From the NCBI GenBank assembly GCA_900554395.1, contig USHB01000022.1:1-11654 (forward strand): DNA of 11,654 nucleotides, given 5' to 3'. This DNA comes from an uncultured Phascolarctobacterium sp. GTDB lineage: Bacteria; Bacillota; Negativicutes; Acidaminococcales; Acidaminococcaceae. The position numbers were made by a program, and so were the translations under genes. The notes beneath the pieces were generated by a model. It saw only the letters and a list, made by a program, of their open reading frames with translations. It was not told where the DNA came from and did not search any database. Below are positions 6,211 to 10,825 of this stretch, piece after piece; the first letter of the stretch is position 1; each line of letters begins with the position of its first letter.

Positions 6211-6501
6211 TTATGCACGGTGATGTGCGTTAAAGCAGTCGCGGCAGTAAACCGGACGGTCTTCGGAAGGTTTGAACGGAACTTCGGTTTCTTTGCCGCA
6301 TTCAGCACAAACTGCCGGATACATCTGGCGGGCCGGACGTTCACTTACAATGCCGAGGCGCTGTTTGCGGGCCTGACGGCATGCCGGGCAGCGGCCCGGT
6401 TCGTTGGTAAAGCCTTTGGATTCATAAAATTCCTGTTCGGAAGCGGAAAAAACAAATTCCTTGCCGCATTCCTTGCATACTAAAGTTTTGTCTTCTTTCA
6501 T
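6211..6501 (-). CDS. Small double zinc-ribbon protein (zf-trcl plus CxxC-x17-CxxC domain)
   Basis: A 96-residue soluble protein with four CxxC pairs: Cys9/12 with Cys38/41, and Cys65/68 with Cys86/89. The first pair set (CKECGKEFVFSASEQEFYESKG, then CPACR) looks like the 'probable zinc-ribbon' (zf-trcl) domain. The second has exactly 17 residues between its two CxxC knuckles, the spacing that defines the CxxC-x17-CxxC domain. A basic linker (QARKQRLG) lies between. Each set should bind one zinc ion; the basic linker is compatible with nucleic-acid contact, but the function of these proteins is not known to me. ATG at 6501 has AAGGAG 11 bases upstream. The gene is alone, with its own promoter, a long leader and a terminator, which suggests separately controlled expression. 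Confidence 0.88.
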   Translation of the reverse strand: MKEDKTLVCKECGKEFVFSASEQEFYESKGFTNEPGRCPACRQARKQRLGIVSERPARQMYPAVCAECGKETEVPFKPSEDRPVYCRDCFNAHHRA

Positions 6502-6696: not shown

Positions 6697-7305
6697 TTAA
6701 CGCAAATAATATGTTGCGTTGGTACATTCAAGCACTGTATTATATCCGCGCCATTTGGCAAGCGTAGTTGTACTGCAATTACCTACGCTGAAATTCCATA
6801 TTTTGTTCAAATCAACGTCCAAAAACAAACACAGCAACACACGGATAATGCCTCCGTGGGATACTATGGCATTATCCGCATCGTCCATCTCTGCCAGGCA
6901 GCGTTTAAAAAACGGTTCTACGCGCGCGGCAACGGCCGAAAAGTTTTCGCCCCCTGGCACATGGCATAGCGCCGGATTTTTAAAAAAAGCATCAATATCG
7001 CCCGGCCACCTGGCATTAATTTCATCAAAAGTCATGCCTTCCCATTCTCCAAAGGCAATCTCTTTAATATCATCAAAAGTTTCTACCTTTAAGTTATGCA
7101 TTTCAGCCATGGGCTGCGCTGTCTGGCGTGCGCGCGTAAGGCTGCTGCAATAAATTTTATCAAGGTGAATCTCCTTAAAATGTTCTGCCAGTAATTCTGC
7201 CTGGGCTTTGCCTTCGGCATTCAGTTCAATATCGGTTTGACCCTGAAAACGGTAACTTTTGTTGGAATCGGTTTCGCCATGGCGGATAAGATACAGCCTG
7301 CCCAT
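6697..7305 (-). CDS. cobC: Histidine phosphatase family protein, probable alpha-ribazole phosphatase
   Basis: A 202-residue phosphoglycerate-mutase-like phosphatase. It carries LIRHGETDSN (catalytic His9 in RHGE), CSSLTRARQTA (phosphate-binding Arg58), GEWEG (acid residue near 87-89) and the second histidine in VSHGG (His150). In the cob context the expected reaction is removal of the 5' phosphate from alpha-ribazole phosphate or from adenosylcobamide 5'-phosphate, the last step of nucleotide-loop assembly. The family is broad and the assignment rests on position: it is the last gene of a riboswitch-controlled cob operon. Its ATG shares one base with the upstream stop (TAATG), and the AGGAGG ribosome site lies in the last codons of the CobT paralogue, so translation is probably coupled. 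Confidence 0.88.
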   Translation of the reverse strand: MGRLYLIRHGETDSNKSYRFQGQTDIELNAEGKAQAELLAEHFKEIHLDKIYCSSLTRARQTAQPMAEMHNLKVETFDDIKEIAFGEWEGMTFDEINARWPGDIDAFFKNPALCHVPGGENFSAVAARVEPFFKRCLAEMDDADNAIVSHGGIIRVLLCLFLDVDLNKIWNFSVGNCSTTTLAKWRGYNTVLECTNATYYLR

Positions 7306-8162
7306 TATTTTGCCTCCTGTTTGCCTTTCAATTCTTCGGCATGCGAAAATTCTTTTACTTCTACATGTACGCCTGCTTCGGCAAAGGTTTCCATTTCCTT
7401 ATAGGCTTTAATGCCTGCGTTCAAAAGGCTTAACGCCAGCACGGCACCTTCGCCGCGGCAAACTTTTACATCTAACCTTAACGGCGCGGCAAGGCCGATA
7501 GCCTTTAACAAATCTTCCATTGCCGGTTCTGCCGATACATGCCCTGCCAAAAGATAGCCTTTAACAGCAGCGTTGTATTTTACTGCCGCCAGTGCAGCCA
7601 GACAGGTTGCAGCGCCATCCAACATTACAGGCACTTTTAAAGCTGCCGCCTGCAAAATGCCGCCTGCCATAGCTGCAATAGTTTTGCTGTCAAGCTGCTG
7701 TAAAAATTCATAGCCGTTTTCAGCGATTTTATCAATAGTGTATGCAGGAACTTTTTCATCTCCACAGCCAAAAACCAGTACCTGCTGTCCGCCGTTTGCA
7801 CCGACAGCTTCTTTAACCAAGAGCGCGCCTTCAAGCAATGCTTCTTCAATATTTTCTGCCGTTATCAAAAGGGTTTGCGTATTTATTTGGGAATTTTCCG
7901 CAAGTACGCAGACTGTTTTGCCGCCCTGCATATATTCAGCTGCTATTGCCGGTTCATCAGTCCATACCAGCAAGGTTTTATGCGGATAGTTCACATCATT
8001 TTTATCGGCGCTGCCGTAAATTGCAGCATAGCGTGTGGTCATTTCTTCCAGTTTGGCAAGCGAGCCAACCGGTTTAATTAAATTGTCAAAACGCTCCTGC
8101 GCCTTGGCAACCAGTGTTTTATCAAGAGGCTGAACCGTGCCAGCCAGAACATCTATTTCCAT
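7305..8162 (-). CDS. Degenerate CobT paralogue, candidate ArsB-like partner subunit
   Basis: A 285-residue member of the CobT (nicotinate-nucleotide:base phosphoribosyltransferase) family. It keeps the N-terminal loop KPVGSLAKLE (30-39) and the block VMLDGAATCLAALAA (179-193) to GHVSAEPAMEDLL (207-219). Other motifs are lost. The GDHG motif is replaced by TDEP (68-71), the GIGNT region reads FGCGDEK (131-137), and about 45 and 37 residues are missing around them compared with the operon's CobT, including the GRGTGIND segment. Aligned without gaps, the catalytic Glu of GEGTGA falls on Arg236; a two-residue gap would instead retain Glu238. It is unlikely to be an active CobT alone. The ribosome site AAAGGA is nine bases before the ATG, 24 bases after cobS. 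Sporomusa ovata ArsAB, a heterodimer of two CobT homologues that activates phenol and p-cresol, is the closest known precedent. A regulatory or stabilising role is also possible. Confidence 0.8.
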   Translation of the reverse strand: MEIDVLAGTVQPLDKTLVAKAQERFDNLIKPVGSLAKLEEMTTRYAAIYGSADKNDVNYPHKTLLVWTDEPAIAAEYMQGGKTVCVLAENSQINTQTLLITAENIEEALLEGALLVKEAVGANGGQQVLVFGCGDEKVPAYTIDKIAENGYEFLQQLDSKTIAAMAGGILQAAALKVPVMLDGAATCLAALAAVKYNAAVKGYLLAGHVSAEPAMEDLLKAIGLAAPLRLDVKVCRGEGAVLALSLLNAGIKAYKEMETFAEAGVHVEVKEFSHAEELKGKQEAK

Positions 8163-8186
8163 TTTGCACCATCCTTTTTATATTAA

Positions 8187-8945
8187 TCAGCACGCAGCAA
8201 GCAAAAGTACGCGCGCTAAAATTATCAGCGTTATCAAATACAGCACATTGCCGCATTCCGTCAACGCGCCGTAAGTATCGCCCGTTAATCCGCCAAGCTG
8301 GCTTTGTAAAAATTTGGCAATGCCAAATACCAGCACAAAAGTTACAGCCATCACCGCAAGGTAAGCCATGCCGCATACCGCCGTTATGGCAATGCCAAGT
8401 GCCAGGGCTATAACAGTGTATATAGGTTTGGCATACATGGTAAACATGTGCCCGATACCGGTTTTGCGCGCATACGGAAAGTTGACGATGAAAATTACCA
8501 TAAAGGTACGCGTTGCCACACTCATAGCTATCAACGCCGCCGTAAGTTCCGCCGGGTTAATGGCAAGGTATGCCGATACTTTCAGCAAAATAAGCACGAT
8601 AACCGCTAAAACTGCGTTAGAACCTACATGGCTGTCCTTCATAATTTCCAGCATCCGCTCGCGGCTGCGTGCCGAAAATACGCCGTCAGACGTATCCATA
8701 AAACCGTCGTACATCAACCCGCCGGTAATAATTATCTCGGCAAGGATAAGCAGTGCCGCGCGCATAAAATCGGGTACGGCAAGCCATACCAGCCCATAGT
8801 TAACTGCACCTAAAAACACGCCGATAACAAGCCCTATCAGCGGAAAATACGGTACACTGCGCGAAAAATCTTCGTCGCGCCAATCAGTGCGGTGACTGAA
8901 ACGGATGCGCGTTAAAAATTCCAGGCAGGTTATAAAATCACGCAT
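8187..8945 (-). CDS. cobS: Adenosylcobinamide-GDP ribazoletransferase (cobalamin synthase)
   Basis: An integral membrane enzyme of 252 residues that joins adenosylcobinamide-GDP to an alpha-riboside (phosphate) to give the cobamide. Signatures, numbered from this start: FPLIG (34-38), the metal-binding DGFMDTSDG (80-88), IMKDSHVG (101-108), and QLGGLTGDTYGAL near the C-terminus. Several hydrophobic segments fit the family's multi-spanning topology. I chose ATG 8945 rather than the in-frame GTG at 8954: it gives the usual MRDF-type N-terminus, has AGGTGA just upstream, and forms a tight ATGCGTGA overlap with the cobT stop, suggesting translational coupling. It lies between the two CobT-family genes. 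Confidence 0.95.
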   Translation of the reverse strand: MRDFITCLEFLTRIRFSHRTDWRDEDFSRSVPYFPLIGLVIGVFLGAVNYGLVWLAVPDFMRAALLILAEIIITGGLMYDGFMDTSDGVFSARSRERMLEIMKDSHVGSNAVLAVIVLILLKVSAYLAINPAELTAALIAMSVATRTFMVIFIVNFPYARKTGIGHMFTMYAKPIYTVIALALGIAITAVCGMAYLAVMAVTFVLVFGIAKFLQSQLGGLTGDTYGALTECGNVLYLITLIILARVLLLAAC

Positions 8946-9966
8946 TATGTTCACCTGCGGTTAATTTTTTATATAAATCCAGCGCCGATTGCAGAATAAC
9001 TATTGCCAAAGATGCACCGGTGCCTTCGCCAAGGCGCATGCCTGCATCCACGATAGGCTGAAGGTTTAAAATTTCCAGCATTTTGGCATGTGATATTTCT
9101 GCCGATAAATGCGAGCAGAACATATAATCTGCGCAGGCAGGTTCAATGCCGTAAGCCAAAAGCGCCGCTGCCGTTGCGTTTACGCCGTCCACCATGGTCG
9201 GCACGCGGCGGCGCGCACCTGCAATAATCATACCGGCAAGCCCGGCGTGGTCGTAACCGCCAACCTTGCACAAAATATCCATTGCATTGCCAAGTTTCGG
9301 CTTATTAACATCCAATCCATCGGCAACTACTTTACGTTTTACTACCATGCGTTCATCGTTAATGCCGGTGCCGCGCCCAACAGTCAGCTCCGGTGCAAGC
9401 CCGGTAAACGCAGATACGATAGCGGCGGTTGAAGTTGTATTGCCAATGCCCATCTCTGCCGTTACCAGCATGTTATAGCCTTTATCAATACATTCATCGG
9501 CAACTTTCATGCCGCGCTGCAATGCTTCTTCTGCCTGCTCAAGTGTCATGGCAGGGCCTTTAGTAAAATCTTCCGTACCCCAGGCAACCTTTTCATTGCG
9601 CACTTTCGGCAAATGGCTTAAATCAAAAGTTGTGCCCATATCCACAACAAAAACATCTGCACCGGCATGGCGCGCCATTACGTTAGCACCTGCCGTGCCG
9701 CGCATATAGCCGTTAATCATCTGCATGGTTACTTCCTGCGGGTAGGCGCTTACACCGTATTTGGCAATACCGTGGTCGCCGCACATTAAAAGCATGGCGC
9801 TTTTTATTTTGCCTTCAAAATCAGCCGTTCCGCTGATTGCCGCATATTTTTCAACCATTTTTTCTATTTTGCCAAGCTGCTCCGGCACTTCATCCAAACA
9901 CAGCCATTTTTGGCGTACAATTTCTGCCGCATCTTTATTAAGGGGCGGCACAGTAATTTTCTGCAT
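8938..9966 (-). CDS. cobT: Nicotinate-nucleotide:base phosphoribosyltransferase (CobT / ArsA-like)
   Basis: Makes alpha-ribotide of the cobamide lower ligand from nicotinate mononucleotide and a free base. The 342-residue protein has most CobT hallmarks: CGDHGIAKYGVSAYPQEVT (62-80), EMGIGNTTS (171-179), GRGTGIND (197-204), VGGYDHAGLAG (235-245), MVDGVNATAAALL (258-270), SHLSAE (285-290) and RLGEGTGA with the catalytic base Glu314. One hallmark is missing: the N-terminal KPxGSLGxLE loop reads EVPEQLGKIE (26-35). That loop is intact in the second CobT-family protein two genes downstream, so the two may form one composite enzyme. The ATG overlaps the cobU stop by one base (TGATG), and the ribosome site GAGGAGG is formed by the Glu codons at the end of cobU. 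The accepted base (benzimidazole, purine or phenolic) is not readable from sequence. Confidence 0.93.
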   Translation of the reverse strand: MQKITVPPLNKDAAEIVRQKWLCLDEVPEQLGKIEKMVEKYAAISGTADFEGKIKSAMLLMCGDHGIAKYGVSAYPQEVTMQMINGYMRGTAGANVMARHAGADVFVVDMGTTFDLSHLPKVRNEKVAWGTEDFTKGPAMTLEQAEEALQRGMKVADECIDKGYNMLVTAEMGIGNTTSTAAIVSAFTGLAPELTVGRGTGINDERMVVKRKVVADGLDVNKPKLGNAMDILCKVGGYDHAGLAGMIIAGARRRVPTMVDGVNATAAALLAYGIEPACADYMFCSHLSAEISHAKMLEILNLQPIVDAGMRLGEGTGASLAIVILQSALDLYKKLTAGEHNA

Positions 9967-10544
9967 CAGTTTTCCTCCTCAAACTTAAAAGCCAGTTTCT
10001 TCATATCCACTGCCTGCCCGGCAACGCAGTAAAACACGCTGTCTGCCGCTTCTGCAACCTGCTGGTTTACCCAGCCTGCAATATCGCGGTATTCACGCGC
10101 CATAGCATTTTCCGGCACAATGCCTGCGCCGCCTTCGTTAGTTACAAACACAACCGTTTTGCCGCTTTGGCGTGCAACAGCAAGCAATTTGCCAATTTCT
10201 GCTTTTACAGCCTGTGCTTTTTGTTCAGTTGTGCCTCCCGGCGCATTTTTGCCATACAATAAATTGCTCATATAAAGCGTGAGGCAGTCAAACAAAACCG
10301 TATCTGCCTGCTGCGCAGCTTCTTTCATCACTTCATGAGCGTTGTAGGGGGCTTCAAAATTTATCCAGCGCGTCTGGGGGCGGCGCGCCTGATGTAAACG
10401 TACTCGTTCTGCCATCTCGTCATCTAAAATCTCGGCGGTAGCAATGTAGGCGCACCTGGCGCCATAATGCAGCACATATTTTTCGGCAAATTCACTTTTG
10501 CCGCTGCGCGCACCGCCCGTTACCAAAACAAGTTTACCCGGCAT
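9966..10544 (-). CDS. cobU: Adenosylcobinamide kinase / adenosylcobinamide-phosphate guanylyltransferase
   Basis: Bifunctional enzyme that phosphorylates adenosylcobinamide and transfers GMP to give adenosylcobinamide-GDP, the substrate of CobS. The protein of 192 residues starts MPGKLVLVTGGARSGKS, with the P-loop GGARSGKS directly at the N-terminus as usual. Also visible are VRLHQARRP (the segment with the guanylylated histidine of CobU), FDCLTLYMSNLL, and TNEGGAGIVPENAMAREYRD. The start is ATG 10544 with AAGGAG seven bases upstream. An in-frame TTG at 10586 would place 14 extra residues across a terminator hairpin and is rejected. It is the first gene of the riboswitch-controlled operon; its last codons hold the ribosome site of cobT. 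Confidence 0.95.
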   Translation of the reverse strand: MPGKLVLVTGGARSGKSEFAEKYVLHYGARCAYIATAEILDDEMAERVRLHQARRPQTRWINFEAPYNAHEVMKEAAQQADTVLFDCLTLYMSNLLYGKNAPGGTTEQKAQAVKAEIGKLLAVARQSGKTVVFVTNEGGAGIVPENAMAREYRDIAGWVNQQVAEAADSVFYCVAGQAVDMKKLAFKFEEEN

Positions 10545-10566
10545 CTTAAAACTCCTTTCTATAAAC

Positions 10567-10594
10567 AAAAAATCCCCTTTATGCAAAGAGGATT
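10567..10594 (-). terminator. Riboswitch expression-platform terminator before cobU
   Basis: On the minus strand AAUCCUCUUU and AAAGGGGAUU form a 10-bp stem (one U-G wobble) around the loop GCAU, followed by UUUUUUG. It lies between the cobalamin riboswitch and the cobU ribosome site, 22 bases before the ATG. It therefore fits transcription attenuation rather than ribosome-site sequestration. Confidence 0.88.
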
Positions 10595-10649
10595 ACACTT
10601 TTACCAATATGCAAGCACCCACCTATCCCCCGTAGGCAATAGCACTCGT
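10595..10649 (-). promoter_or_regulatory. Linker between riboswitch aptamer and terminator, candidate antiterminator
   Basis: The linker can fold as CUAUUGCC, UACG loop, GGGGAUAG (one mismatch). Alternatively its GGGGGAU (10631-10625) can pair with AUCCUCU (10593-10587), the 5' arm of the terminator, using two G-U pairs. The two states exclude each other, as expected of a ligand-controlled switch. This is my pairing by eye, not a computed fold. Confidence 0.45.
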
Positions 10650-10811
10650 AACAGGCAGGTCTCCTGGCTCAGGTTCATCGCCGCGCTGCGCCTTCCCAAA
10701 GCATCGCTTCAGTGACATCTTGCAGACGGCTCGCCATTACAGTAGCGGGACTGCGCCGGATTCGCACCGGCTTCCCTATTAAGCTCGCGGGGTTAACCGC
10801 ATCACCTGTTG
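10650..10811 (-). ncRNA. Cobalamin (adenosylcobalamin-type) riboswitch aptamer
   Basis: The minus-strand leader before cobU contains the conserved B12 box AGCCAGGAGACCUGCC (within 10669-10651), the GGGAAGCCGGUGCGAAUCCGGC hairpin region, and the CAGUCCCGCUACUGU core. A closing P1 helix pairs AACAGG (10810-10805) with CCUGUU (10655-10650). Together with the downstream terminator it should shut off the operon when cobamide is plentiful. With the linker and terminator, it accounts for the whole 328-base gap between the transaldolase gene and cobU. Confidence 0.95.
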
Positions 10812-10825
10812 ATTTTTTCCGATAA

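Follow-up and report, generated by a model that had tools for sequence, protein, structure and literature searches.

CobT and the ArsAB heterodimer

CobT is a homodimer, and the N- and C-terminal parts of each chain close the active site of the neighboring chain. In the S. enterica enzyme, the base pocket is described as being built from both chains, with E317 as the catalytic base (PMC9561151). The closest described two-subunit system is ArsAB of S. ovata (PDB 4hdk, 4hdm, 4hdn, 4hdr, 4hds), which also consists of two CobT paralogues and has the catalytic residues in subunit A; ArsA and ArsB were identified here by their identity to the 4hdk chains. In a review that names two producers of phenolyl cobamides, S. 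ovata and V. parvula, both are reported to use ArsAB. A survey placed arsAB in 27 species by a search for cobT genes that are direct neighbors and 300-800 aa in length (PMC6461909), a rule that would miss pairs split by cobS, B proteins of less than 300 aa and single-gene fusions. Among the papers listed in literature searches, none has a title or start of abstract on cobS-split or fused pairs, and an earlier description may be in print. The genus Phascolarctobacterium was found in the cobamide literature searched only in the reference list of one paper.

The operon in Phascolarctobacterium

The window analyzed here is a stretch of 11,654 nucleotides from an uncultured Phascolarctobacterium sp. 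(GCA_900554395.1, contig USHB01000022.1). It contains an operon with two CobT paralogues, both belonging to PF02277, and cobS in between:

10637..10824, minus strand: RF00174 cobalamin riboswitch aptamer upstream of the operon (115.6 bits, gathering score 31.5, E 5e-29)
9966..10586, minus strand: cobU, adenosylcobinamide kinase/guanylyltransferase (PF02283 8.3e-57; NF004469 190.9 bits, cut-off 161)
8938..9966, minus strand: long CobT homologue (A), 342 aa, proposed catalytic subunit (PF02277 2e-110)
9862..9903, minus strand: place of the KPxGSLG loop in the long protein, codons 22-35, aligned to S. enterica CobT 27-40; reads LCLDEVPEQLGKIE, loop lost
9025..9027, minus strand: codon of Glu314 in the long protein, aligned to the catalytic base E317 of S. 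enterica CobT
8187..8954, minus strand: cobS, adenosylcobinamide-GDP ribazoletransferase (PF02654 2.8e-51; TIGR00317 131.5 bits, cut-off 110)
7305..8162, minus strand: short CobT homologue (B), 285 aa, proposed non-catalytic lid subunit (PF02277 5.2e-40)
8046..8087, minus strand: KPxGSLG loop of the short protein, codons 26-39; kept, reads DNLIKPVGSLAKLE
7455..7457, minus strand: codon of Arg236 in the short protein, aligned to the column of the catalytic Glu (E317)
7368..7397, minus strand: C-terminal element EMETFAEAGV of the short protein, codons 256-265; missing from the long protein
6697..7305, minus strand: cobC, alpha-ribazole phosphatase (TIGR03162 178.8 bits, cut-off 162.9)

While the genes of ArsA and ArsB are adjacent, those of the window pair are separated by cobS and thus lack the adjacency by which arsAB was recognized in PMC6461909. 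The original prediction had pointed out this difference, and the gene order stands, but it is no peculiarity of the window: besides the window itself, the order cobU-A-cobS-B-cobC was found in 18/18 Acidaminococcaceae loci read, and cobS also lies between A and B in five loci of other families.

Division of the motifs between the two proteins

The long protein scores well above the gathering score of PF02277 (369.5 versus 22.6 bits) and also above the curated cut-off of the CobT equivalog TIGR03160 (350.8 versus 319.3 bits), and its best PDB sequence match is ArsA (4hdk_A, 5.6e-82). The fold, PF02277 and, in the long protein, the catalytic motifs are shared with CobT of S. enterica, Thermus and Yersinia. 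As had been read from the sequence before, alignment to S. enterica CobT finds DHG, TAEMGIGNTT, GRGTGINDE and Glu314 (E317 in S. enterica CobT numbering) present, and the KPxGSLG loop absent. The short protein is likewise recognized by PF02277 (138.1 bits, gathering score 22.6) and remains below the TIGR03160 cut-off (126.1 versus 319.3 bits). It keeps the K-P loop, lacks DHG, GIGNT and GRGTG, and carries Arg236 at the Glu column, again as predicted; in place of the two internal deletions claimed earlier, the alignment contains three gaps relative to S. enterica CobT (69-84, 116-143 and 182-222), the edges of which are alignment-dependent. Residues K30, P31, S34, L35 and E39 are invariant across an alignment of 19 B proteins.

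A second reciprocal loss, absent from the earlier note, concerns a C-terminal element, [ED]MxTFxxA, which is found in the short and not in the long protein.

The predicted structure of the short protein is a confident, compact and reduced CobT fold, with ArsB chains as the top structural matches and CobT nearly tied. A length below 300 aa and the loss of motifs could indicate a pseudogene or a frame artefact, and tandem cobT genes of that size were dropped as annotation errors in the survey (PMC6461909). We give this explanation practically no weight and rejected it on the dN/dS of the short gene, which within its genus is 0.12-0.15 and thus reflects purifying selection (the long gene is better conserved, with 0.06-0.10; all values are approximate because dS is 0.6-1.3). 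The confident model speaks against a pseudogene as well, as do relatives of 278-289 aa among the 120 matches listed of 567 public proteins. A scan of viral contigs for the short protein gave 15 pattern matches, with no relative among these.

The same motif split is seen in S. ovata, and in this respect the predicted likeness to ArsAB is confirmed: ArsA reads LQSAGSLG, with K-P lost, and ArsB reads TKPLNSL; K-P and the C-terminal element are lost from ArsA and window A and kept by ArsB and window B; and in the window pair, too, the catalytic residues reside in one subunit only. S. ovata ArsB, like window B, lacks the DHG His, the GIGNT Asn and most of GRGTG. The B proteins differ in that S. ovata ArsB keeps Glu317 in a chain of 350 aa, whereas window B has 285 aa and Arg replaces the Glu. 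In CobT the parts of the pocket are found within one protein type, whereas in the window they are divided over two proteins.

The motif split across Negativicutes

The reciprocal decay predicted for this pair is general in Negativicutes. Among 44 A/B pairs, Glu317 and Glu174 are kept in 44/44 A proteins and K-P in 44/44 B proteins, and the C-terminal element is found in 41/44 B and 2/44 A rows. The discordance is one-sided beyond chance, with K-P lost in A and kept in B in 32 pairs and the reverse in 0, the C-terminal element at 39 versus 0 and Glu317 at 30 versus 0, although these pairs are not independent events. Counted as the fewest changes on a single quick tree per feature, K-P requires 11 and the C-terminal element 3 in the A rows, and Glu317 requires 7 in the B rows with four long-branch rows left out. 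The 25 control CobTs of other phyla were hand-picked from 69 loci (L122-L190) that were found via the C-terminal pattern, so that its presence in 25/25 of them is by construction; K-P is not part of that pattern. A class-wide DNA pattern for DNLxxKP had many matches outside the locus and is too short for counting.

In other families, 8 of 20 loci contain the A and B halves in one open frame. Public single-chain A-B proteins, 39 of which were aligned from a list of 120, are 591-755 aa long; in the aligned proteins, the N halves carry the catalytic motifs and the C halves DNLxKP, both without variation. One of them, P0133 of Anaerosporomusa (named CobT at NCBI), was modeled with AF2 at a pLDDT of 91.8 and a pTM of 0.93. 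The N/C motif division is the same as between the window proteins, which differ in being encoded by two genes.

A proposed one-site heterodimer

We infer, with a probability of about 0.82, that the two window proteins pair obligately as an asymmetric heterodimer in which, as in ArsAB, a single active site works, which supports the composite site of the original prediction. This is based on the one-sided loss in the 44 pairs and the same split in S. ovata ArsA/ArsB, on the A-B fusions, the constant gene order, the dN/dS of the short gene and the riboswitch, and on the use of both chains in the S. enterica CobT base pocket as described in PMC9561151. Speaking against it, K-P is still found in 12/44 A proteins (including 7/18 of Acidaminococcaceae) and Glu317 in 14/44 B proteins, and a Veillonella-like family (f35) has three CobTs, apart from its A/B pair, that keep the catalytic residues without K-P and the C-terminal element, so that some CobTs can do without these two.

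One protein appears, as judged from sequence, to have kept the chemistry and its much shrunken partner only the lid, and relatives show this division as well. The long subunit would bind NaMN and provide the catalytic Glu. The short subunit, whose own site is gone together with about 60 core residues, would use its N-terminal KPxGSL loop and its C-terminal [ED]MxTFxxA element to close the base pocket of its partner in trans. The heterodimer would then turn the lower-ligand base into its alpha-ribotide; CobS would join this to the CobU product before dephosphorylation by CobC, with the cobalamin riboswitch presumably controlling the operon. Physical pairing, the contribution of both elements in trans, activity and regulation are all parts of this inferred model.

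Alternatively, the long protein could act as a lone homodimer, and the short one could be decaying or have another role such as CobS binding. The long protein does exceed the CobT equivalog cut-off and its gene is the better conserved one, but both elements kept by the short protein are missing from it; the short gene is found in 18/18 Acidaminococcaceae loci read and evolves under purifying selection within its genus, and other families have B fused to A. We therefore regard a lone homodimer as improbable.

Descent of the pair

The ArsAB-like nature of the pair, as originally proposed, holds for similarity and not for descent. In a careful tree (21/44 pairs, 12/25 CobTs, no f35 rows), the window-type A groups with A of genomes G043 and G048 in a clade (97/99) apart from ArsA (100/99), and the short protein falls outside the ArsB clade. 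In this phylogeny, which had been suggested as a check, forcing the short B together with ArsB, without B of G043 and G048, gave a p-AU of 0.026, whereas one clade of all B proteins was not rejected (p-AU 0.351). Both proteins of L048, a locus of another family with cobS in between, lie in the ArsA and ArsB clades of the careful tree. In a quick tree (116 rows, with a long-branch warning), B of L034, L039 and L048 falls outside the S. ovata ArsB group and B of L047 joins it, adjoining another long branch; the A halves of the eight fused loci group with ArsA.

Long branches might in principle have misplaced a true ArsAB orthologue, which would make a phenolyl or p-cresolyl cobamide as in S. ovata and V. 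parvula. ArsA and ArsB are indeed the best PDB sequence matches, with ArsB chains on top structurally, the clade of all B proteins is allowed, and the A proteins lie on one side of a branch with a support of only 62/43. Asn266 occurs in 18/18 Acidaminococcaceae A and 22/22 ArsA proteins and in 0/25 of the control CobTs, with Tyr92 and Ala99 distributed alike. However, ArsA-typical Thr84, Asn104, Ser206 and Ala318 are found in 0/18 Acidaminococcaceae A rows, genome G019 has both kinds of locus (L062, L063), and the separate A clade and the p-AU of 0.026 also disagree, so that we think orthology is unlikely. The best reading of the sequences is that the pair works like ArsAB and comes from a sister lineage.

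The lower ligand

A phenolic or otherwise non-DMB cobamide, as proposed for this operon, is possible. Phenol or p-cresol is a leading candidate because S. ovata and V. parvula use ArsAB, and p-cresolyl cobamide is given as the product of the two relatives with known product (PMC8123684). Residues 80, 88 and 175 are those changed in a p-cresol-bound CobT mutant, going by the PDB title of 4kqj. Y80, M88 and M175 are present in the long protein, but all three also occur in 15 of the 25 CobTs of other phyla, and they were rejected as a mark of phenol use. A one-site heterodimer with a different natural base, adenine or a salvaged benzimidazole, deserves serious consideration, although we rate it somewhat below an even chance in view of the two p-cresolyl cobamide producers. 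ArsAB itself is reported to activate DMB too (PMC8123684), and the 80/88/175 signature is not diagnostic. Profile matches over the cut-off were found among relatives in 0/61 cases for TIGR04386 (BzaB) and in 0/37 each for TIGR04385 (B12-related radical-SAM) and BluB, and a benzimidazole would therefore probably have to be salvaged. The TIGR04386 hits in four genomes checked are ThiC by the cut-off.

Wider occurrence

Lower-ligand activation helps to determine the structure of a cobamide, and this structure in turn influences which B12-like cofactors a given microbe can use. Tentatively, and at slightly less than even odds, a one-site two-subunit enzyme that arose from an early CobT duplication in Negativicutes could be the main means of lower-ligand attachment in this class, kept as an adjacent pair, as a cobS-split pair with a shrunken lid or as a fusion. 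The Acidaminococcaceae branch would then be a separate lineage with its own ligand range, overlooked because the survey accepted only neighboring genes with lengths of 300-800 aa. In genome G043, A and B both have intact motifs, and the series from such an intact pair to a dead lid subunit offers a testable case for the transition from a shared-site homodimer to a one-site heterodimer.

Complementary motifs in the two CobT homologues

The operon begins with a cobalamin riboswitch, followed 50 bases further on by cobU, and 24 bases separate cobS from the short CobT gene; the other adjacent operon genes abut or overlap:

10824-10637, reverse strand: cobalamin riboswitch, first element of the operon
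10586-9966, reverse strand: cobU
9966-8938, reverse strand: long CobT homologue (342 residues, A)
8954-8187, reverse strand: cobS, between both CobT homologues
8162-7305, reverse strand: short CobT homologue (285 residues, B)
7305-6697, reverse strand: cobC

The gene at 6211-6501, between cobC and that of an LPG_synthase_C protein, encodes a 96-residue protein consisting of two treble-clef zinc-finger domains (PF13451, PF23477).

Alignment on S. enterica CobT, whose numbering is used below, bears out the original assignment of motifs to the two proteins. DHG, TAEMGIGNTT and GRGTGINDE are present in the long protein and its Glu314 corresponds to position 317, but at positions 27-40, the KPxGSLG site, it has LCLDEVPEQLGKIE instead. 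The short protein reads DNLIKPVGSLAKLE at the loop site, lacks DHG, GIGNT and GRGTG as well as equivalents of residues 69-84, 116-143 and 182-222, and carries Arg236 at position 317. A second reciprocal loss concerns the C-terminal element [ED]MxTFxxA, which the short protein carries as EMETFAEAGV and the long one lacks.

ArsAB of Sporomusa ovata is an already known system and the model for this pair. Two proteins encoded by genome G303 equal the ArsA and ArsB chains of PDB entry 4hdk letter for letter over the alignments shown. The loop region is VLQSAGSLGRLE in ArsA, whose end lacks the C-terminal element, and NLTKPLNSLHSFE in ArsB, which ends in NDMKTFGEAEV. The predicted likeness to ArsAB therefore holds in that both pairs split the motifs in the same way, although the decay of ArsB is less advanced than that of the short protein, since Glu is kept at 317 and 174.

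In CobT the N- and C-terminal parts of the chain form a small domain that closes the site of the neighbouring subunit. If this holds for the present pair, the core has to be retained by A and the lid by B, with which the pattern found agrees, and the KPxGSLG loop may serve the partner's active site. As described in PMC9561151, the base pocket of S. enterica CobT has components from both chains, and Glu317 is the base.

Generality of the division

We compared 44 A/B pairs (the window, 17 more Acidaminococcaceae, five A-cobS-B pairs of other families, nine adjacent, eight fused and four of the Veillonella-like family f35) with 25 CobTs of other phyla. All 44 A proteins keep Glu317, Glu174 (E or D) and Asn179, with Lys-Pro of the loop in 12 and the C-terminal element in two; all 44 B proteins keep Lys-Pro and 41 the C-terminal element, with Glu317 in 14, Glu174 (E or D) in eight and Asn179 in five. 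The outside CobTs keep all five features (25/25), the C-terminal element by construction, as this pattern was used to find them. Discordant pairs run in one direction: 32 versus 0 for Lys-Pro, 39 versus 0 for the C-terminal element and 30 versus 0 for Glu317. On one quick tree each, the minimum number of changes among A proteins is 11 for Lys-Pro and three for the C-terminal element, and among B proteins, with four excluded, seven for Glu317, six for Glu174 and none for Lys-Pro. Judged from these motifs, the putative division of labour is general. In genome G043 all these motifs are intact in both proteins, and thus stages are visible, with two complete CobTs at one end and a dead lid at the other. 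In fused chains (39 aligned, out of at least 120 proteins) the catalytic motifs are invariant in the N-terminal half and DNLxKP in the C-terminal half, which would give the same answer, A as core and B as lid. A strict rule for Lys-Pro and the C-terminal element is contradicted by three f35 CobTs apart from the f35 pair (L103, L105, L108), which lack both and keep the catalytic residues.

In a published survey, arsAB was taken to mean cobT genes that lie side by side and encode 300-800 residues (PMC6461909). Because this definition requires adjacency and that length, cobS-split pairs, lid subunits below 300 residues and fusions would escape it. Among the papers listed by open-access literature searches we found no description of the class-wide split, of a sub-300-residue lid subunit with cobS between, or of the fusions.

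Gene order and distribution

The nearest genome among those compared, G001, has 25% of sampled words in common with the window. The family of the window, Acidaminococcaceae, includes Succiniclasticum ruminis DSM 9236 (L114); further relatives are MAGs labelled Acidaminococcaceae or Phascolarctobacterium. The order cobU-A-cobS-B-cobC occurs in 18/18 Acidaminococcaceae genomes (L051-L062, L064-L069, each locus read over 9-10 kb) and identically in G048 outside this family (L070). At 20 loci of other families (L031-L050), A-cobS-B is found in four, adjacent A-B in eight and both in one open frame in eight; L049, counted as adjacent, is cut by a contig end and its B is visible in a separate analysis only. 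Public databases contain fused A-B proteins, several bearing the name CobT. The position of cobS, originally set against tandem arsA-arsB, is confirmed for the window but does not mark a lineage, as G059 (L048) combines A-cobS-B order with proteins inside the ArsA and ArsB clades.

One genome, G019, holds a cobS-split window-type pair (L062) plus an adjacent pair (L063) whose proteins group with ArsA and ArsB. An Acidaminococcaceae-type pair (L121) lies in a MAG filed as Acholeplasmataceae, a label that is probably wrong. An additional CobT elsewhere in the genome occurs in 5/12 f35 genomes. Genus g12, of the window's family, seems to have lost base activation, because none of its nine genomes (G017, G028, G033, G062-G067) has a PF02277 match.

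Descent of A and B

In a careful tree of 54 rows, ArsA (100/99), ArsB (100/100) and window-type A with the A proteins of G043 and G048 (97/99) form clades, and the branch with all A proteins on one side has a support of 62/43 only. The original prediction connected the short protein with the ArsB/CobT branch; a place within ArsB did not stand, as short B proteins form their own clade outside it (100/99), whereas a single clade of all B proteins has an AU p of 0.351. Further AU tests of short B gave p 0.451 with B of G043 and G048, 0.172 with window-type A, 0.156 with other CobTs, 0.036 with ArsA and 0.026 with ArsB without B of G043 and G048. The simplest reading is a single duplication into A and B, followed by two lineages of pairs. 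Descent on the B side is uncertain because of long branches, and this side is less tidy in the quick tree of all rows than in the 54-row tree.

Lower-ligand evidence

Y80/M88/M175, the combination present in 4kqj (by its entry title an engineered p-cresol complex), occurs in the long protein and also in 15/25 outside CobTs. The long protein shares Asn266, Tyr92 and Ala99 with ArsA (0/25 outside CobTs) and lacks all of ArsA's Thr84, Asn104, Ser206 and Ala318. PMC8123684 describes p-cresolyl cobamide as made by S. ovata and V. parvula. Among relatives, no matches over cut-off were obtained for TIGR04386 (0/61), TIGR04385 (0/37) or BluB (0/37). A marker of corrin-ring synthesis, CbiD, exceeds its cut-off in 21/25 relatives and in 6/6 of the window's genus. 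Three proteins of the window's family (L191:4057-5331, L192:5198-6472, L193:5622-6896) reach 643-664 bits with the BzaB model, whose cut-off is 700; as they pass the ThiC cut-offs, they are probably ThiC, though near BzaB. ThiC of G046 scores 535 bits against the same model.
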